From NCBI GenBank assembly GCA_038040445.1, contig JBBPIG010000012.1, positions 62,001 to 126,000 on the forward strand: a stretch of 64,000 nucleotides of DNA, read 5' to 3'. Below are positions 1 to 45,208 of the stretch, in pieces. Position 1 is the stretch's first letter, and each line of letters opens with the position of its first letter. The notes beneath the pieces were generated by a model, which had not been told where the DNA came from, did not search any database, and was given only the letters and a program-made list of their open reading frames with translations. The position numbers and the translations under genes were made by a program. The stretch comes from Acidobacteriota bacterium. GTDB taxonomy: Bacteria > Acidobacteriota > Blastocatellia > UBA7656.

Positions 1-1922
1 GAATGCGGAACGAACATGTATTCGGTCGGCGGCTCGCCGAGCAGAAAGTACTTGCCGTCCTTGGCTACTCCGACGACTTCGCGAAATGGGCTTAGCGCGT
101 TGCCAAGCTGCAAGCGTTTGCCGATCGGGCTCTCGTTTGGCCAGAAGCGCCGCGCCATCGTCTCGTTGACAACTACCACGCCCGGCGCGTTTTGATCGTC
201 GTGTTCAGTGAAGCCCCGGCCTTCGACGATCGCCGTGTCCATCGCCTGAAAGTAGTCGTGGCCAACGATGCTGTAGTTCACGCTGAGCCGTTCGTTCTCA
301 TACGCGGGCATTGCGCCTTCGACGGTCAATCTCGCGCCGTTGCTGTAGGCGTCCAGCGGCAACGGCCCGGCGAGGCTGGCGGCTTGCACGCCAGGCAGCG
401 ATTTAACGCGCTCGACTATCTGCTTGAAGAAATTCCGTCCCTTCGTCTCGTCGTAGCCGTGCAGGCCGACATCAACTGAAGCCAGCAGGATCTGCTTCGG
501 CTCAAAGCCGGGATTCATCTCTTGCACATTGCGCGTGCTCCTGATGAACAGCCCCGCGCTTATCAAAAGCATCAGCGACAACGCCACCTGCGCGACGACC
601 AGCAGGTTGCGCAGACTCAACCGCCGCGTGCCCGAAGTCACCGAGGGACCCTCGCCCTTCAACACGGTCACCAGATCGGTCCTCGAAGCTTGCAACGCCG
701 GCAGCAAGCCGAAGATGACCCCGGTCAGCGCGGACACACACAACGTGAAACCCACTACGCGGTGATCGAGCGCGAGATCGTAACTGAAGTCGATTGTCGC
801 AAAGTCGAGTTGAGGGTTCGCCAGCGGAACAACTGCGTTGAACCACTGAGCCAGCAACAATCCCAAACCGCCGCCGATCAACGAAAGCAATACGCTTTCA
901 GTCAACAACTGACGCACGAGCCGCCGGCGGCCTGCGCCGAGCGCCAGGCGAATCGCGATCTCGCGCCGCCGCACCGAAGCCCGAGCCAACAGAAGATTTG
1001 CTACATTCGCGCAAGCGATCAACAGCACCAGACCCACTATCCCCATCATGAGTCCGGCAACTATCGGGATGTATCCGAGCAGAGTGAGCGCAGGCTGAGT
1101 CTTGCTGCCGCCCGGAACCATGCCAACGCTGATGTTGGCATTCGTCTTCGGATAGGCTTCGGCAAGTTGCTGCGCGTAGGTGTTCATCGCCGCGGTCGCT
1201 TGCTCGATGGTAACGCCCGGTTTGAGACGCCCGTTGACATTGAATGATTGGCGGCCGCGGTTTTCGAGCCAATCTTCGCTTCCGGCGACGACCTGGGTAT
1301 GCATTGCAATCGGGATCCACACATCAGGAATGAAGCCGACGAAGCGCGTTCCCGAAAAGCCTTGCCGCGCAACTCCGACAACCGTGAAGTCGTGGCCATT
1401 CAACCGTACGTCTTTGCCGACGATGTTCGGGTCGGCGCCAAATCGCTGCTTCCAGAACCCGTGACTCAGGACTGCGACCGGGTGCCCGCCCTCGGCGCGA
1501 TCGTCGTCCGGCGTGAGGACACGCCCGGCCGCCGGCGTAACGCCAAGCCCAGTGAAGTAGTTCCCTGAGACCAACTCACCCCAGATCAGCTCGGCCTTGT
1601 CGGCGCTGTTTTTCATGCTGACCGGCGTACCGTCGTGCAGGAACAGATCGCTGAAGACTTCGTTGTGGTCTCGATAGTCCCGGTAGTCGGGATAGGAGAA
1701 TGCGTCCGGATATCTCGAATTCGGTTCGATGGTGTAGAGCGCCACGAGTTGTTCGGGATGCGGCACCGGCATCGGCTTAAACAAAACCGCGTTGACGAGT
1801 GTGAAGATGGACGTATTTGCCGCAAGGCCCAACGCAATCGACAACACGGCGATGAGCGTAAAGCCCGGAGCTTTTATGAACGTACGGGCGGCATATCGGA
1901 GATCCTGCCACAATCTATTCAT
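1..1922 (-). CDS. ADOP-family orphan permease, 3' end outside window
   Basis: The minus strand is open from the ATG at 1922 to the window edge, giving about 640 residues without a stop. An AAGGTGA ribosome site precedes the ATG. The N-terminus shows the family hallmark WQDLRYAARTFIKAPGF, followed by a membrane segment ending in GLAANT, where most family members have GIGANT. A MacB-like periplasmic domain follows, then the first permease domain with [20 protein letters not shown] and LALGAGRRRLVRQLLTES. The second periplasmic domain runs to the window edge. The second permease domain is outside. It is closest in style to the ADOP at 7213-9720. A heptamer inverted element separates it from the PQQ gene upstream. 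Confidence 0.9.
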   Translation of the reverse strand, partial: MNRLWQDLRYAARTFIKAPGFTLIAVLSIALGLAANTSIFTLVNAVLFKPMPVPHPEQLVALYTIEPNSRYPDAFSYPDYRDYRDHNEVFSDLFLHDGTPVSMKNSADKAELIWGELVSGNYFTGLGVTPAAGRVLTPDDDRAEGGHPVAVLSHGFWKQRFGADPNIVGKDVRLNGHDFTVVGVARQGFSGTRFVGFIPDVWIPIAMHTQVVAGSEDWLENRGRQSFNVNGRLKPGVTIEQATAAMNTYAQQLAEAYPKTNANISVGMVPGGSKTQPALTLLGYIPIVAGLMMGIVGLVLLIACANVANLLLARASVRRREIAIRLALGAGRRRLVRQLLTESVLLSLIGGGLGLLLAQWFNAVVPLANPQLDFATIDFSYDLALDHRVVGFTLCVSALTGVIFGLLPALQASRTDLVTVLKGEGPSVTSGTRRLSLRNLLVVAQVALSLMLLISAGLFIRSTRNVQEMNPGFEPKQILLASVDVGLHGYDETKGRNFFKQIVERVKSLPGVQAASLAGPLPLDAYSNGARLTVEGAMPAYENERLSVNYSIVGHDYFQAMDTAIVEGRGFTEHDDQNAPGVVVVNETMARRFWPNESPIGKRLQLGNALSPFREVVGVAKDGKYFLLGEPPTEYMFVPH

Positions 1923-2084: not shown

Positions 2085-3410
2085 TCAGCTCAAGTCCAAC
2101 GCCACAATCGTCTTTCGATCGCGGACGTAGAGCCTGGTTCCCGTCACGGTCGGCGGGGTCCACGCCAGGTTGGTCAACAGATTCGTCTTTGAGATGACCT
2201 TCATTCCCTGCGGCGAAAACGTGACCAGCGCGAGCACACCGTCTTCATCGAGCAGAATCACCTTGCCGTCGACATAAACAAGGTTGGCTTTGGGAAAGCT
2301 GCGATCCTGCCAGACCGTGTTGCCTGTGCGCACATCAACCGCGGTCATCGGCGCGGGCCCGAAATCTCCGCTCGATCCAAAGACCAGATCGCCAAGACGA
2401 ATCATCGTGGTGTGATGCACGCGCATTCGACGGGAGGCCCACAATTCCTTGACGGTGGTTTTTCCGGCTGATTGATTCAACTGAAGCGCGCGGCTCCCGC
2501 CGCTGTAAGCGGATGACACAACCAGAATGTTTCCAGCTCCCCAGACCGGTATGCTGATGTTCAAGCCCCAGTCGCAATCGTGCGGATGGCTCCAGAGCAG
2601 CTCCCCGTTGTTAGGATTCATTCCGACGATGTGATCGCCGAGCGCGATCACTAACTGATCCTGCCCGTCAACGTTGATGATGGTCGGGGTCGACGGCGAA
2701 AGCTTGAAGTCCTGTTTCTTCCAGACCACCGCGCCCGTCTTTTGATCAAACGCCATCAGCGCCTGCCCCGCGCCGCCTACGGTCACAATGACAGTGTTTT
2801 TCCAGGCGAGCGGACTGCACGAATAACCGCGATCCATCAATTTTCCGCCATACTCTTTCCAAAGTTCGTGAGACCACACGACTCTCCCCGTTTGTTTGTC
2901 AAAGGCGTGCATCTTTCCGATCACGCCGACGGTGAAAAGAAGGTCTCCGGCGACGAGCGGCGTCGAGTGCGGGCCGTTGCCGTTTTCCAAATCGAGCCCG
3001 GTAGGCGGCGCCGCATTGCTCTTTTCCCAAATCGTTTTTCCGTTTGCCGCATCGAGGGCAACCACAAACTCCTGGTCGCCTTTACTGTACATCGTGTAGA
3101 GCCGAGCGCCATCCGCAAGTATCGACGAATGACCTTCGCCGAGTTCGCGACTCCACAGTCGCTTCGGCCCATTGTCGGGCCATGCCACCGCCAGCCCCTT
3201 CGCTTCAACCATGAAGTTGCGCTGCGGCCCACCCCACTGCGGCCAGCCGGCTGATTGCGCAAGCGCGCCGGCACTCACGAATAAGAGCAATAGCAAGAGC
3301 CATCCTCCCTTCGCAACCTGTGATCCGGCACTGAGCTCGATTCTCCTGAAGCGCGGCTTCCGGGCAGGAACGCTCGCGACATAGCTATGGTCTTGCTGCA
3401 ATGTTTGCAT
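2085..3410 (-). CDS. Secreted PQQ-type beta-propeller protein
   Basis: A protein of about 441 residues with repeated propeller blades of the PQQ/BamB-like kind, such as VALDAANGKTIWEK, HAFDKQTGRVVWSH and MAFDQKTGAVVWKK. A hydrophobic signal (WLLLLLLFVSAGALAQ) precedes the mature part, so it is probably exported. I chose the ATG at 3410 because GGAGGG lies just upstream. The first residues, MQTLQQDHSYVASVPARKPRF, follow the ADOP start pattern MQTL.QDLRYG....KPGF, so the leader looks like a degraded ADOP N-terminus. The gene begins within 12 nt of the serine hydrolase stop and is probably co-transcribed with it. The ligand or enzymatic role cannot be told; it may be a quinoprotein-like or scaffold protein. 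Confidence 0.85.
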   Translation of the reverse strand: MQTLQQDHSYVASVPARKPRFRRIELSAGSQVAKGGWLLLLLLFVSAGALAQSAGWPQWGGPQRNFMVEAKGLAVAWPDNGPKRLWSRELGEGHSSILADGARLYTMYSKGDQEFVVALDAANGKTIWEKSNAAPPTGLDLENGNGPHSTPLVAGDLLFTVGVIGKMHAFDKQTGRVVWSHELWKEYGGKLMDRGYSCSPLAWKNTVIVTVGGAGQALMAFDQKTGAVVWKKQDFKLSPSTPTIINVDGQDQLVIALGDHIVGMNPNNGELLWSHPHDCDWGLNISIPVWGAGNILVVSSAYSGGSRALQLNQSAGKTTVKELWASRRMRVHHTTMIRLGDLVFGSSGDFGPAPMTAVDVRTGNTVWQDRSFPKANLVYVDGKVILLDEDGVLALVTFSPQGMKVISKTNLLTNLAWTPPTVTGTRLYVRDRKTIVALDLS

Positions 3411-3421
3411 CATCCCTCCTA

Positions 3422-4570
3422 TCACTGTTTCTTGAGCACGGTGTTAACGATCGGTGCTACCAGTTCTTCGCAGAAGGCTCTTTCAAGGTTCGTCATCAGC
3501 GCGATGGTAAAGCGTTTTTCGGGGATGAGATACAGATACGTGCGTGTGCCGGCTTGGCTGCCGTCGTTCCATACCCGTTTCGGTTCGCCTTGACCAGCAT
3601 CGGCGATCAGCCAGCCCAGACCGTAAGACTGCAATTGCTTACCGTCCGCGGTTTTCTGGCGCGTCCACATCTGCTCAAGCGTCCGCGGCTTCACCAGCTT
3701 GCCCTGCTGGATCGCGATGGCAAACTTCGCGAGGTCTTCTACGGTCGAAACAAGACCGCCGCCGGGCAGCCTGCCGCTGGTGTCGAGCGGCGGAGCATCC
3801 CTCACGTCGCCGTTCGCGGACTTGCTGTACAGCCGGGCGCGGTCCGGAATATTCGCCTTGAGGTCATCAGTCTGCGTTCGCGTCATGCCCGCAGGCTTGA
3901 AGATTTTTTCGCGCAGGTAATCAGGGTACTTCATCCCGGAAGCGCCTTCGATCACGCAGCCCAGCACCGAGTAACCGAGAGTCGAGTAGAGATACTTCGT
4001 ACCCGGTTCGTGCAGCAGCGGTTCGTCCTTGAAGAAACTCAATGATTCAACGACGCTGTCGAAATGACGATTTGAAGGATCGGAAAACCTGTGATGGCGG
4101 ATGCCGCTCAGATGCGCAAGCAGTTGTCGCGAAGTGATTTGCCATTGTTTTGCCGGGAAAGCCGGGCAGTATTTCTGAACCGGCGCATCAAGATCGATTT
4201 TCCCCTGCTCTGCCAACTGCATCACGGCTGTGGCTGTGATCGACTTGCCTATTGAAGCCAGTCGGTAAACCGTAGTCGCGGTGGCCGGTATCCTCTTCTC
4301 GGGATCCGCCAGGCCGAAGCCTTTCGCCCAGAGTAGGCGATTGTCAGCAACGATCGCTATGGAAAGAGCCGGCGCTTTGTGCTTCGCCATCCACTCTGAA
4401 ACGGCCCCTTCGATCTTTTCGGTTTCGCCGGTCGACAGGCCCCGCGCGCCTTGCGCAAAGGTGTTCGCGCCGATGCCGAGCGCGAGCGTTATGACCGCGA
4501 CCGTCGCGAAGGCGCGCTTCTTGAGAAGTATTCGAACGGCGTACCTCAGGTCTGGAAAGAGAGTGTGCAT
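3422..4570 (-). CDS. Serine beta-lactamase-like hydrolase with ADOP-derived leader
   Basis: 382 residues. Residues about 50-375 are a class C beta-lactamase/penicillin-binding-type domain (beta-lactamase family, as in EstB and D-aminopeptidases). The nucleophile motif SIGK is at 106-109 and a Y-S-T triad, in place of the usual Y-S-N, is at 195-197. Residues 1-37 are not a normal signal peptide: [15 protein letters not shown] followed by a membrane helix ending GIGANT is the exact N-terminal signature of ADOP permeases. The match breaks after GANT into FAQGA, a plausible signal-peptidase site. The gene therefore looks like a fusion in which an ADOP start region now exports a periplasmic hydrolase. 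The substrate is unknown (peptide, ester or beta-lactam). Confidence 0.9.
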
Positions 4571-4604
4571 GATTCCTCGGAGTTCAGGACTACTTAGGGT
4601 TTGC

Positions 4605-4706
4605 AGTCCGCCTTCTGACGGAAGTCGTGTCGCTTTGCCAGAGAGCTAATCCAACACCTTCCGCCTGAAGGCGGGACTACGAACCACGAACCCGGAACCC
4701 GGGTTC
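4605..4706. repeat. Inverted repeat plus heptamer half-arm downstream of an ADOP
   Basis: Two arms, AGTCCGCCTTCTGACGGAAG (4605-4624) and its near complement at 4658-4678, can form a 20-bp imperfect stem. At 4681-4706 a short H1-type arm (GAACCACGAACCCGGAACCC) follows and meets the ADOP stop codon at 4706. It could act as a transcript 3' end between the ADOP and the hydrolase gene. Confidence 0.7.
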
Positions 4707-7132
4707 TATTCATATCGCAGCGCGATTATCGGATCGACTTTCGCAGCGCGACGCGCTGGCAGGTAACAGGCTAGCAACGCGACCAACGCGAGCAGCAGTG
4801 CTACCCCACCCAGGGTCAACGGATCAGTTGCGCTCGTGTTGAATAACAGGCTTGCCATCAATCGCGTCATAGCGAACGATGCGATCAGGCCAATAACGAC
4901 ACCGGTCAACGCCAGCTTCACTCCTTGTCCGAGCACCAGCTTCAGCACCTGGCTCTTCTCTGCACCCAACGCCATTCGAATCCCGATCTCACGAGTCTGC
5001 TGCGATACGACATACGACAGCGCTGCATATATGCCGGTGACCGCCAACAACAGGGACAACACCGAGAAGATCGCCAGCAGCGACATTACGAATCGCGTGC
5101 GCCAGTCCAGTCCGCTAACGATGTCTTCCATAGACCGCACCAGATAAACCGGCATCGCCCGATCAACCGCTCTCACTTCTTTCGCTGCTGCCTCCGTGAA
5201 GGCGAGCGGATTGGACGTGGTGCGCAGCACATAAGCGAATGCGGCCGGCGCGGTGTCCTGTTCCAGCGGTAGATACAAGGTCGGCTGCGGGTCGGGTGGA
5301 AAAGAATCGGTGCGCACGTCGCCGACAATGCCGACGACCTGGCGCAGGATGTTGCGGTTGCTTCCAATCGCCACTCTCTTGCCCAGCGGGTCTTCAGCGC
5401 CCCAAAGCTGGCGAGCCATCTTCGCACTGATTACCGCGACCGACGGAGTACCGGCAGTGTCGTTCTCGGTGAAGAGCCGTCCTTGTAGCAGGGGGATCTT
5501 CATCGCGCTGAAATAATCAGGAGTGCTCCGGATGGCGGTCGCTCGCGGTTCCTTTCCGGGTTCCGGCACAGGCTGTCCTTCGACCATCACCGTCGTCAAC
5601 CCGAACTGAGGATAGAAGGGATGGAACTGCGCTCCGCCGACCGACTGCACTCCCGGAATCGCCGCGAAGCGGTCCCGGATCTCCTTGAAGAATCGCTGTC
5701 GCTGTTCGCTGTCTTTGTAAGCCGCCCCGCGCGTCGAAACGCGAAACGTGAGGAGATTGTCCGAATCGAATCCCTGGTCCAGACGCTGAAGATTTCGGAA
5801 GCTCTGCACCATCAGCCCGGCGCCGACCAGCAGCGCCAACGACAAAGCAGTTTCTGCGATTACCAGAAACCGTTGCATTCGCCGGCTGCTGGGGCTGCCG
5901 GTGGCGCGCCCGGTTCCAGCGAGCCCGGAGACAATGCTGACCCGCCGCGCATAGAGCGCCGGAATCAATCCGAGCACGATGCCGGGCAACACCGAAATTG
6001 CCAGCGTGAATAGAATGACGTTGCGATCCACCCGAAAATCGAAGTGTGGAATGTTGAGGCCGGTGGGAATGAGCATGCCAACGCTCTCTGTTCCCCAAAT
6101 CGTCAGCAACAATCCAGGCCCAGCGCACAGCATCATGAGCAACAGACTTTCGATCACAAGCTGACGCAGCAACCGCAATGTTCCTGCGCCGAGCGCCCGG
6201 CGCAATGCGAACTCACGCTCGCGCGCGACCGAACGCGTCAACAACAGATGGGCCACGTTGCTGGAAGCGATCAACAATACGAACAGCACAGCGCCCATCA
6301 GCAGCAGCACTGCGGGGCGCACTCCGCGAACAACGCTCTCCTTGAGAGGTGCGACAAGCGCAGCGCTGTTCTGGTTCGTGTCCGGGTATTGCTGTTTGAG
6401 CTCCTGAGAAATACGCGTGAGTTCCTGCTGCGCTTGGCTAAGGGTCACCCCATTGGCGAGACGCGCGACGACAACATGATCGTTCCCGCGCCGATCCAGC
6501 CCGCTTTGATTCAACGCCAATGGCAACCAGGCGTCGGGGCGCACCGTCAGCCCGAATATCGGATTATCGAACTCAGCCGGCATCACCCCGATGATCTCGT
6601 AAGGCACGCCGTCCAACTCCGTAGTTCGTCCGAGAATGTTCCGATCCTCACCAAAGCGGCGCTGCCACAACTCATAGCTCATCACCATCACCGCCCTTGC
6701 TCCCGGACGATCTTCTTCAGGCGCAAAAGTCCGGCCCATCATCGGCTGAACTCCGAGCGTATCGAAGTAGCCGGCTGACACCGTCTGCATCAACGGAGTG
6801 TCAGGCTCGTCAAAGCTGGTCAGCGTCTTTGAAATACTCACCGCCGCGCCGATCTTATCGAACGACTGACTCATCCGTTGCCAGTCGGCGTAATTGCCCG
6901 CGGCGACGGGCCGCCAGAGCGCCGCATTCGCAGGATCGATCTGCCAGATGGCGACCAGCCTCTCGGGATCGCTGAAGGGCAGAGGCTGAATCAGCACAGC
7001 GTTGGCCACGCTGAATACCGTCCCCGCAACGCCGATGGCGATCGACATCGCCAGTACGGCAACCACGGTGACTTCGGGATTCCTGCGCAGCAGCCGCAAC
7101 CCAAATCGAACGTCAGACAGCCATCCAGACAT
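4706..7132 (-). CDS. ADOP-family orphan permease (divergent member)
   Basis: 808 residues. The order is: one N-terminal membrane helix (about 20-42), a MacB-like periplasmic domain (about 50-260), a three-helix FtsX permease domain (about 275-405), another helix near 430-450, a second periplasmic domain, and a second FtsX domain (about 685-800). The C-terminus is [19 protein letters not shown]. ADOPs form large paralogous families in Acidobacteriota and normally have no ATPase gene beside them; none is seen here. The transported substrate is unknown. I start at the ATG at 7132 behind AAAGGAC rather than the GTG 15 nt upstream. It is divergent: IGVAGT replaces GIGANT, and SSNVAHLLLTRS replaces [12 protein letters not shown]. 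Confidence 0.93.
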   Translation of the reverse strand: MSGWLSDVRFGLRLLRRNPEVTVVAVLAMSIAIGVAGTVFSVANAVLIQPLPFSDPERLVAIWQIDPANAALWRPVAAGNYADWQRMSQSFDKIGAAVSISKTLTSFDEPDTPLMQTVSAGYFDTLGVQPMMGRTFAPEEDRPGARAVMVMSYELWQRRFGEDRNILGRTTELDGVPYEIIGVMPAEFDNPIFGLTVRPDAWLPLALNQSGLDRRGNDHVVVARLANGVTLSQAQQELTRISQELKQQYPDTNQNSAALVAPLKESVVRGVRPAVLLLMGAVLFVLLIASSNVAHLLLTRSVAREREFALRRALGAGTLRLLRQLVIESLLLMMLCAGPGLLLTIWGTESVGMLIPTGLNIPHFDFRVDRNVILFTLAISVLPGIVLGLIPALYARRVSIVSGLAGTGRATGSPSSRRMQRFLVIAETALSLALLVGAGLMVQSFRNLQRLDQGFDSDNLLTFRVSTRGAAYKDSEQRQRFFKEIRDRFAAIPGVQSVGGAQFHPFYPQFGLTTVMVEGQPVPEPGKEPRATAIRSTPDYFSAMKIPLLQGRLFTENDTAGTPSVAVISAKMARQLWGAEDPLGKRVAIGSNRNILRQVVGIVGDVRTDSFPPDPQPTLYLPLEQDTAPAAFAYVLRTTSNPLAFTEAAAKEVRAVDRAMPVYLVRSMEDIVSGLDWRTRFVMSLLAIFSVLSLLLAVTGIYAALSYVVSQQTREIGIRMALGAEKSQVLKLVLGQGVKLALTGVVIGLIASFAMTRLMASLLFNTSATDPLTLGGVALLLALVALLACYLPARRAAKVDPIIALRYE

Positions 7133-14363: not shown

Positions 14364-16817
14364 CTATTCGTAACGAAGCGCGACCATCGGATCGACCTTC
14401 GCTGCCCGACGCGCCGGTACGAAGCAAGCCAATAGACCGACGGCGGTCAAACCGACCCCAACCAGCGTGAAGGTGAGCGGATCAGTCGCGCTCACTTCAA
14501 ACAACAGGCTCGCCATAACGCGAGTCAACATATATGCGCCGGTCAAACCTACTGCCAGGCCGACCGCGGTCATCCTCAATCCTTCTCCCACCACCATCGC
14601 CAGCACGTTTCGTGTTGTAGCTCCAAGCGCCACGCGCACGCCAATCTCCTGGGTTCGCTGGGTGACTGAATAAGCCATCACGCCGTAAATCCCAATCGCC
14701 GCCAGCAACAACGCGATAGCTGAAAACGTCCCCAGCAACAGGGAAAGAAAACGCGGTCTCACCAGCGAAGCCCCGACGACCTCGCCCATGGTTTGCAGTT
14801 GATAAATCGGCACGCTCGGATCCAGATCGCTGACGGCCGAACGGATGCCCGACGCAACTGCCCCCGCCGAAGAGCCTTCGGTTTTCACCACGAAGCTCAT
14901 GCGGGTGCCGATTCCGAACGCGACCGTTTGAGGCAACAAGAAGTAGAGCTCGGTTCCCGCCGGCTTATCCACGCCCAGGTTCTTTGTGTCTTCGACTATG
15001 CCGACTACCGTGAACCAAACCGCCGGAGTGTTGAACGCCGGGTTCACGCGGCGGCCTATTGGGCTGCCTTGCCAAAACCGCCGCGCCATCGCTTGATTGA
15101 TCACCATGACCTTCTGCGCGCTGTCGTTGCGGTCGGACGCCTCGAAGGTGCGGCCTTCGAGCGTTCGGATGCCCATCGTCTTGAAGTAGTCCTCGTTCAC
15201 CGTGTTCCAGTAATCGACGTTCTCGGCCGGCCCATCAGGCGTCCCTTGATAATCCTCGATGTCGGTGTCGTTCGCGTTTATCGGCCGCAACGGCGGCAGA
15301 CCCGTCACCAGAGAAGCCGACTTGACTCCGGGCAGCCCGGCCAACTTTTCCTCTAGCTGGTTGGCAAAACGCATTCGATCCGGACTTTGGTATCGCGAAG
15401 CCGGCAGTTGAAGACTGAACGCTGTAACGCTACGCGGCTCAAATCCGACCTCCACCTGCTGAAGCTTCCAGAACGCGCGAATCATAAGGCCGGACCCGAC
15501 GACCGGAATCACCGCAAGAGCGATCTCTACGACAACCAGAGTCTTTCTTAGGCGGTGACTGCCCCCACCACCCGACGTTCTTTGTCCCGACCCGCGCAGC
15601 GTTGTTGCCAGGTCCCGATCGCGCATCTGGAGCAGCGGCGCCATCGCAAAAACTATTATCGAGAGAATCGAGACGCCGAGCGTGAACGCCAGCACCGTCA
15701 AGTCGATTCCGATTTCAGCGGTGCGCGGTATGCTGTCAGGCGCGGCGGCCATTATCAGGCCCAGCCCGACTTTGGCGAGGACTATCCCGGCTATTGCCCC
15801 GAGCACGACGAGGATCATCCCCTCGGCAAGAAACTGTCTGAGCAATCTGTTTCGGCCGGCTCCAAGCGCGAGACGTATCGAGAACTCACGGCGTCTTGCT
15901 TCAGCGCGCGCCAACAAAAGATTCGCGACGTTCACACAAGCGATCAACAGGACAAAAGCCACGGCGCCCAGCAGCATAAGCACCGCCGGGCGCGCCGCGC
16001 CCACCACGTCTTCGTGAAGCGGCACCATCAGGATCGGGTGGCCATCGGGACCGGGCAGGTGCTGAGCCCGATTCTGACTCTTCCAACCAGCCATCAGCGA
16101 GTCGATCTCGGAGCGCGCCTGTTCTACCCTAACGTCCGGTTTGAGTCTGCCGATGACGTAGAGGAAATGCCCGCCTCGATTGCCGGGATTGGCCGGATCG
16201 AACTGAAGAGGCAGCCACACCTCAGCTGGATCGTTGCTGCCGGGAGGAAAAACGAATCCGGGCGGCATAACGCCGGCCACTGTTGTTGGCTGAGAGTTGA
16301 TTTGAATTTCTTTTCCTACGATGTCGTCCTGGCCACCGAAGGCGCGGCGCCACAATCCGTCGGAGATGAGCGCGGTAAGTGGTCCGCCGTTGCGGTCTTC
16401 TTCGGGCGTGAAGTTGCGACCCTTCGTCGGTTGCACTCCCAACGCATCTATCAAACCGCGAGTTACTAGCGCGGCGGTGACTCTGATGGGCTCCTCGGAA
16501 GTGGCGATGTTCCTTCCGGCGGTAGTCCACGCGCCGATGCTGTCCCACGATTGCCCTTCGTTCTGAATGTCTAAGAACTCCGGCGCGGACATCCAGAACT
16601 TTCTCAGGTTCATGGTCGGGAATTCGGTATAGATTCGCACGAGCTTGCCAGGCTCGTTAAAAGGCAGCGGGCGCAGGAGGACGGCGTTGACGACGCTGAA
16701 GATCGCGGTGTTGGCGCCGATGCCAAGAGCCAGAGTGACGACAGCGACTGCGGCGAACCCCGGTTTGTGAATCAGCATTCGCAGTCCGTATCGTAAGTCC
16801 TGCACTAGAGTTTGCAT
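14364..16817 (-). CDS. ADOP-family orphan permease
   Basis: 817 residues with both permease halves. The start is the ATG at 16817 ([21 protein letters not shown]), 4 nt downstream of GGGAGG. The 23 extra codons upstream are not family-like. First-half motifs are [27 protein letters not shown], interrupted only by conservative changes, and the C-terminus is [19 protein letters not shown]. Nucleotides around its start closely resemble those at the start of the PQQ gene at 3410 (ATGCAAAC..T...GCA.GAC), which supports the idea that the PQQ gene took over an ADOP start. It is the most upstream gene of the 16.8-kb minus-strand block. Confidence 0.94.
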
Positions 16818-29022: not shown

Positions 29023-31436
<2,414 letters not shown>

Positions 31437-42740: not shown

Positions 42741-45208
42741 CTATTCACATCTCAACGCAACCATCGGGTCCACTTTCGTCGCGCGGCGCGCGGGAATGTA
42801 GCTGGCCAACAAGGCCACGCCTCCAAGCACCAACGAGACGACAACAAACGTCCCCGGATCAGTCGGACTCACGCCAAACAGCAACCCCGAGATAACCCGG
42901 GTCAACGCGACAGCTCCGGCTAATCCGATCCCTACACCCAACAGCGTAAGAACCATGCCTTGACCAACGACCAGCCTCACGATATCCCGGCGCTGCGCGC
43001 CTAACGCGACGCGAACGCCGATTTCATGCGTGCGCTGAGTCACGGAATAGTTGATGACGCCAAAAACTCCTACCACTGCGAGGACCAGCGCAAGCGCTCC
43101 AAAAATACTGAGCAACAGCATATTGAAACGCTGGGCGCCAACCGAGTCGGAAAAGATCTGATCCATCGTTGTGATAGCAACCGGTTGATCCTTGTCGATG
43201 GCCATCACTTGCTCACGCACAACCGCAGCCAGCTTCAATGGGTCACTCGAGGTTCGGACCATAACCGCCATGGAAGGGTCCGGCTCTTGAAGGTCGGACA
43301 GGTACATCTCCGGGTTGGGCCTCGTGTTCAGACCCATGTGACGGATGTCTCCAACTACGCCAACAATCGTCAGCCACGGACTCGCGATGATGCGTATTCG
43401 TTTGCCAAGCGGCTCCTCATTCGGGAAGAACATGCGGGCCATCGTTTCGTTGATGATAATTGCAGGAGCCGGCTGCGACTCGTTGTAGTGTTCGGGATAA
43501 GGCTGCTGCTCAAACCAGCGCATTACCGGTAGCGCAATCCGGGCGTCCGCTTCAGCGAAGTATCTCCCTTTGTGAAGCGGAACTCTCATCGTCCGGAAGT
43601 AGTCGGAGCTTACGCTGCGCATGGCGGCATTCGGTTCCTGACCGGGGGGCGGCGCGGGATGACCGTCTATCGAGAAGGGCCCCCAGTTATCACCAGGACT
43701 CAGTGGAGTCTGAGTCGTTGCCCCGACCGATTCTACGCCGGGCAAAGCTCGGATCCGGTCTTTGAGCTCTTCATAGAACCTCATCTGTTGCTGCGGCGTG
43801 GTGTATCTCGGACCTGGTAAGGATAGGTCCAGCCTCAGAACATTGTGCGGGTCGAAGCCCGGATCGATACTGACCGGTCGTACAAAGCTCTTGAGCATCA
43901 GACCGCCGCCGGCCAATAACACGAGGGCAAGCGCTACCTCGAGAACCACGAGCAGACTCCCGATCCTTCGCCGGCTCACGCCGGCCGATGCCCTTGTTCC
44001 TTCATTCAACGACTGGCTCAAGTTGAGCTTGGAGCCTCGCAGCGCGGGCATCAGCCCGGTGATGATTCCGGTCAATAGTGAGAAGCCAACGGTTGCCGCC
44101 AGCACCTGGCCGTCAATTCTTATCTGCTCGATGCGGGGAATATTGATCGCCCTGATTCCTGGCAGCAGATCGATGATCCACATCGCCATTAGCACGCCAA
44201 CTCCTCCACCCATCGCCGCCAGCAGACAACTTTCGGTCAACATCTGACGAACCAGTCGCAGTCGTCCTGCGCCCAGAGCGATTCTGATGGCAATTTCTTT
44301 CTGACGGGCCGCGGCTCGCGTGAGCAGAAGGTTGGCGACATTCGCACACGCGATCAGCAATACAAATCCAACGGCGCCAAACAACACCAACAACGCAGGA
44401 CGAACATTGCCTACAATGTCTTCGCGCAGGGAATCGACCTTCACGCCATGCCCGATATTGCTATTCGGATATTGATGTTCGAGCTGCTCGGCGACATGAG
44501 CCAACTCCGCCTGCGCTTGCTCCACGGTCACGCCTGGTTTGAGCCGAGCTATCACATTGTTGTTGTGCCTGCCCACTTTTTGAACTTCCCCGGGCAAGTC
44601 GATGGGAAGCCAGACGTCCGGATCCGTATTCAGCCAGACCCCCACGCACTGCCGCTGCATGACCCCGATCACCATATACTTCTGATCGCTCAAGGTTATT
44701 GTCTTGCCGACGATGTCCGGGTCCGAGCCGAAGCGCCGCTTCCATAGGTGCGCGTTCAGCACAACGATGGGATTGGTGCGCGCCTGATCCTCTTCGGGCG
44801 AGAAGGTGCGGCCCAGAAGAGGCTCCACGCGCAGCACTGAAAAGAAATCAGCCGAAACCCTCGCGGCGGAAATCGCCGCCGGGTCACCCGCACCCGTCAG
44901 CGTGAAGCCGTCACCCGTAAGGATGCCATCTGCTCGAAGCTGCCGGCTTGTTCTCTCCAGCCAACGAACTCGTGTCCCGAGATTGGAAGGTTCGAGTCGT
45001 TGGAGGAAGCCCGTCTCTCCCATATCATCACGAGCCGGTCAGGCTCTTCGAAGGGCAACGGTCTCAGCAGGACCGTGTTGATCAAACTGAAGATGGAACT
45101 GTTGGCTCCAATTCCCAAAGCGAGCGTGAGAACCGCTACGACAGTGAAGCCGGGACTCTTGGCCAGCGTCCGCCAGCCGTATCGCAGATCTTGCAAGAAC
45201 CCATTCAT
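42741..45208 (-). pseudogene. ADOP-family orphan permease with single-base frameshift
   Basis: The ATG at 45208 (behind GGAGGTGACCCTG) starts [21 protein letters not shown] and stays in frame to SFEQMASL. At about 44,920 the frame is lost; the other frame continues [13 protein letters not shown] and runs intact for about 730 codons to [20 protein letters not shown]. Restoring one C in the TCC run (CATCCTTA to CATCCCTTA) gives a normal 822-residue ADOP. As no other damage is seen, this is either a very recent mutation or a sequencing error. Confidence 0.85.

Follow-up and report, generated by a model that had tools for sequence, protein, structure and literature searches.

A putative worn ADOP leader at the start of a beta-propeller gene in an acidobacterial permease array

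Deletion-made fusions and the ADOP array

Gene fusions born of deletions have been reported across bacteria (Kaul et al. 2026, PMC12803068), and both in-frame deletion fusions and promoter capture have been described in Pseudomonas fluorescens (eLife 2015;4:e07074, PMC4395868). In the former set, pieces of two genes are brought together in a new reading frame by a deletion; in the latter, deletions created in-frame fusions between an upstream and a downstream gene, partly raising expression of the downstream partner. The leader on the beta-propeller gene described here is, on our reading, a new example of this known kind of event, namely a deletion-made gene fusion. It departs from the precedents in several respects. 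Whereas the fusions of Kaul et al. were recognised by comparing intact with deleted genomes, the propeller locus is known from its fused state alone, and here only a 21-codon start has been added to an otherwise complete gene. Likewise, the P. fluorescens fusions were laboratory-selected, new and functional, whereas the propeller fusion would be old and decayed. The putative source of the leader is the ADOP family of duplicated permeases (TIGR03434), to which the surrounding genes belong. We found no account of ADOP leaders on other genes in a literature search that left many journals outside its reach.

The genome comprises 6.7 Mb in 72 contigs, with 133 matches to MacB_PCD, many of which fall in ADOP permeases (TIGR03434 itself was tested on two genes of the window). 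These permeases form long arrays on contigs C12, C10, C3, C23 and C32. The window, i.e., the whole 64,000-nucleotide stretch that was analysed, corresponds to G000:C12:62001-126000, and coordinates without a contig label refer to it. On its minus strand lie, in order, an ADOP permease (4706-7132; TIGR03434), a serine hydrolase (3422-4570), the propeller gene (2085-3413) and a second ADOP permease (1-1922, minus strand), which starts at 1922 with MNRLWQDLRYAARTFIKAPGF and runs off the window. A further ADOP (14364-16817, minus strand; 939.9 bits against TIGR03434) had served as the point of comparison in the original prediction. The ADOP at 42741-45208 (minus strand) is apparently broken by a frameshift, its start lying in a 103-codon frame and the remainder in a separate one. 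The array spacers (1930-2084 and 4571-4705 in the window, and that beside the orphan ADOP leader at G000:C10:69922-70056) carry repeated motifs, e.g., GGTTTCTGG / GAACCCTGAACC, which could mediate duplication and deletion.

Layout of the propeller gene and its homologues

The propeller gene (start MMQTLQQDHSYVASVPARKPRF) opens with two ATGs, at 3413 and 3410, and the ADOP register runs from the second of these. Directly before them, just past the hydrolase stop, is a Shine-Dalgarno-like AGGAGGG (3414-3420, minus strand); AGGAGG likewise precedes the start of the ADOP on contig C31. The gene can be divided into three parts, all on the minus strand: a putative worn ADOP leader (3348-3413), a signal peptide of native type (3258-3347, RRIELSAGSQVAKGGWLLLLLLFVSAGALA) and the mature propeller (2085-3257). 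The signal peptide was delineated by alignment and hydropathy: it aligns with the orthologue start MKKSLSRSF, and the hydropathy maximum falls at residue 38 (counted from 3413), where the hydrophobic segment WLLLLLLFVSAGALA begins. This is the separate hydrophobic signal that the original prediction had placed after the leader. Its probable cleavage site, placed by eye, lies between ALA and Q. The mature part matches PQQ_2 (PF13360) with an E-value of 2.1e-28 and hits only beta-propeller families of this kind; it contains neither the MacB_PCD nor the FtsX halves that typify TIGR03434, such that the leader is all that the gene has in common with ADOPs. Against the BamB model (TIGR03300) it reaches 72.9 bits, below the equivalog cut-off of 285.2 bits, and from its sequence we predict a PQQ-like propeller that, by this cut-off, is not BamB.

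The nearest orthologue (contig C34 of the related genome G015) is 73% identical and sits directly between two ADOPs, giving an ADOP-propeller-ADOP order. It starts with an ordinary signal peptide (MKKSLSRSFLTAQTGCALLL / MKKSLSRSFLTAQTGCALLLCCLLLTSAHAQ) that matches the query from about residue 23 onwards. In eight further homologues and a paralogue on contig C3, too, the protein opens with its native signal peptide, without any ADOP-like start. Since the homologues begin at their own signal peptide, the leader is an addition in front of a complete signal peptide of native type. Moreover, no in-frame ATG, GTG or TTG occurs from codon 5 to the hydrophobic core, so that the leader would now provide the start codon; its start appears to be the only plausible one for the gene, the native start presumably having been lost. 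Searches of the genome_contigs set, of 11 genomes from the G015 family, of 396 from the phylum and of plasmids gave no closer propeller orthologue. Nor did the genomes searched contain an intact ancestor, an intermediate or a second strain with the leader, and hence the deletion itself is not seen. In another acidobacterial MAG (L088:2800-3057), the gene immediately after an ADOP is a propeller of the same family reduced to its last 86 residues, an arrangement that looks like a decayed ADOP-propeller pair.

Resemblance of the leader to ADOP starts

We compared the leader with ADOP starts without gaps, anchoring the comparison at the second ATG and extending it over 21 residues or 63 bases, using a position profile derived from 32 ADOP starts in the same genome and control starts drawn from the DNA of this genome and its relatives. 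On this profile the leader scores 9.7 bits, a value reached by none of 200,000 residue shuffles (mean -48, maximum 2.1); genuine ADOPs score at least 16.7 bits when each is left out in turn. Among 3,416 scanned ORF starts, with ADOP-sized frames left out, the leader ranks second, the neighbouring hydrolase being first at 39.5 bits and the third-placed start lying 15 bits under the leader at -5.6. It also stands 11 bits over the best unrelated 21-mer from a six-frame scan of 588,570 distinct 21-mers that excluded ADOP-like frames.

The DNA points in the same direction. The closest ADOP leader, G000:C31:38831 (MQTLLQDLRFAARILARKPGF), shares 12 of 21 residues and 42 of 63 bases with that of the propeller, while 4,193 unrelated starts share at most 9 of 21 residues and 34 of 63 bases with any ADOP leader. 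The DNA identity of the leader was reached by none of 20,000 codon shuffles, and its best value (42/63) is no lower than the mean identity between ADOPs (39.4/63). With the peptide held fixed, the synonymous codons favour those of ADOPs over random choice when scored by mean identity (P = 0.016), the corresponding best-match test giving P = 0.11. The degraded ADOP-derived start of the original prediction is thus borne out by the profile, shuffle, 21-mer and DNA identity tests, all of which lie beyond chance; a score no better than that of random N-termini of the same composition, which it had named as the result that would undo it, was not what the shuffles returned. The peptide it quoted and the spared positions it listed (M-Q-T-L-x-Q-D, Y and K-P-x-F) are correct. 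It had further likened the DNA to that of the ADOP starting at 16817: the likeness to ADOPs holds, but this copy is not the nearest one, sharing 10 of 21 residues and, by our own count, 33 of 63 bases.

The leader is nevertheless worn. It lacks the conserved ADOP residues R9, R13 and G20, the two arginines being invariant in the aligned ADOP set. Its resemblance to ADOPs ends at residue 21, just ahead of their first membrane helix (LALGIGANT), into which the propeller leader does not continue; such a stop is expected if the join sits at codon 21. A profile HMM of the ADOP leader (hmmsearch --max) gives it 1.6 bits over its first 7 residues only, and in a genome-wide search with the 21-residue leader at E<=10 it is absent from the matches. 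We ascribe this miss to the reduced sensitivity of the HMM for a 21-residue match that has decayed and not to the failure of a defining feature; as the HMM does not detect the leader, its significance rests on the start-anchored ungapped comparison. Taken on that comparison, the start of the propeller gene reads as a degraded version of the opening 21 codons of an ADOP gene.

Alternatively, selection could maintain the ADOP-like start because it initiates translation efficiently or serves as a targeting module, in which case it would be no passive remnant. The best-kept part, M-Q-T-L-x-Q-D following AGGAGG, does open the gene, and both operon neighbours use ADOP-like starts. However, the remainder of the leader has decayed, and the gene retains an intact signal peptide of native type that suffices alone in the homologues, which makes selection quite improbable. 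Chance, by which a long n-region would agree by accident with ADOP starts at some ten residues, is very improbable: the loss of the two strongly conserved arginines and the failure of HMMER to call the leader speak for it, but neither set of shuffles reaches the leader, which stands well apart from the rest of 4,195 starts and 588,570 21-mers, and we estimate, by extrapolating the tail of the 21-mer scan, that about 0.0001 such starts would be expected among those of the DNA analysed.

The neighbouring hydrolase, orphan leaders and a proposed origin

The serine hydrolase upstream (PF00144; 3422-4570, minus strand) offers a clearer and more interesting case than the propeller. The ADOP profile, the domain match and the homologues together establish that an ADOP leader replaces its signal peptide: the leader is well kept, includes the first membrane helix and runs straight into FAQGARG, while all 18 homologues whose starts were read have ordinary N-termini (0/18 ADOP-like). 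It is undoubtedly a fusion to an ADOP 5' end and shares 48 of 63 bases with its best ADOP. The propeller case is of the same kind, in the same operon and from the same donor family, but whereas the ADOP membrane helix replaces the signal peptide in the hydrolase, the propeller retains its native one. The two leaders share 35 of 63 bases and are not each other's closest match, which makes two donors likelier than one; they probably derive from different ADOP copies, fitting two events. That the propeller leader was instead copied from the hydrolase by local duplication, making one capture out of two, is the least probable alternative, for although the genes adjoin, both have ADOP-like starts and strong decay could blur a comparison of base identities, the 35 shared bases are fewer than those that each leader has in common with the ADOP closest to it (42 and 48 of 63).

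The original prediction took the adjacent starts as a sign that leader capture recurs. The pair of genes with ADOP-derived starts stands, but recurrence does not follow from one operon in one genome with no third case in the searches that follow. A survey of other propellers, proposed at the same time, showed the leader on one of 38 propeller-like ORFs in this genome and its relatives, namely the one described here. A search of the genome with the leader HMM at E<=1 gave 63 matches, the last ones at chance level; besides the hydrolase, these are ADOPs, broken ADOPs and orphan leaders, with no third capture among them. About 260 leader matches in seven related genomes yielded no further capture either, the odd frames inspected being ADOPs that were cut, frameshifted, internally deleted or fused, weak matches, or leaders without a body; such searches register well-kept leaders only, and decayed ones of the propeller type can escape them. 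Leader capture as a recurring process is thus weakly supported.

Broken and orphan forms of ADOP genes occur in several of these genomes. In a relative, at G005:C89:40780 (minus strand), about 120 N-terminal residues are joined to the C-terminal permease part in a 368-codon frame, which is an ADOP with an internal deletion. Two orphan leaders lie on contig C10 of the present genome: one (G000:C10:69922-70056) comprises 45 codons of perfect ADOP start followed by a stop, and the other (G000:C10:29949-30032, minus strand, at 29970) 26 codons followed by a stop. In both, a short spacer and then an intact ADOP lie downstream; they are leaders left by deletion of ADOP bodies. Comparable remnants are found in relatives at G019:C33:35306, G002:C34:34222 and G011:C174:7308. 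A single open frame of 1,496 codons with two ADOP leader matches (from G027:C146:9022) is apparently two fused ADOPs.

We put at roughly 0.83 the probability that the 21 codons from 3410 are an ADOP 5' end, joined in frame to the propeller gene by deletion with loss of the native start. This reading draws on the resemblance of the leader to ADOP starts, its absence from homologues, its position before a signal peptide of native type, the lone start codon and the orphan leaders; the deletion, its order in time, the export and cleavage of the protein and the near-neutrality of the leader are parts that we infer. An ADOP copy would formerly have lain directly ahead of the propeller gene, and a deletion of the type that left the orphan leaders, running from about codon 21 of that ADOP to the propeller start codon, would have produced an in-frame join. 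With the native start lost, translation would begin at the acquired ADOP start codon, which would place 22 extra residues as an over-long n-region before the intact native signal peptide. They would presumably stay cytoplasmic and be discarded along with the cleaved signal peptide, leaving them free to decay, with the consequent loss of R9, R13 and G20. Apart from providing a start codon, the leader probably has no role.

A broader scenario, in which large ADOP arrays shed 5' ends that neighbours repeatedly adopt as start or membrane-targeting leaders, such that ADOP expansion gives rise to new N-termini in acidobacterial genomes, is unlikely as matters stand. The propeller leader itself is a genuine, if minor, instance in which one gene has acquired another's start: it is readable as a gene that lost its own start and survives on that of a neighbour, beside a fresher example of the same kind. 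The orphan leaders may show the first step of such a capture, and the series from intact ADOP through orphan and fused leader to decayed leader could be dated if sister strains were sequenced. More generally, gene starts in ADOP-rich genomes may bear permease-derived residues that lie outside the mature protein.
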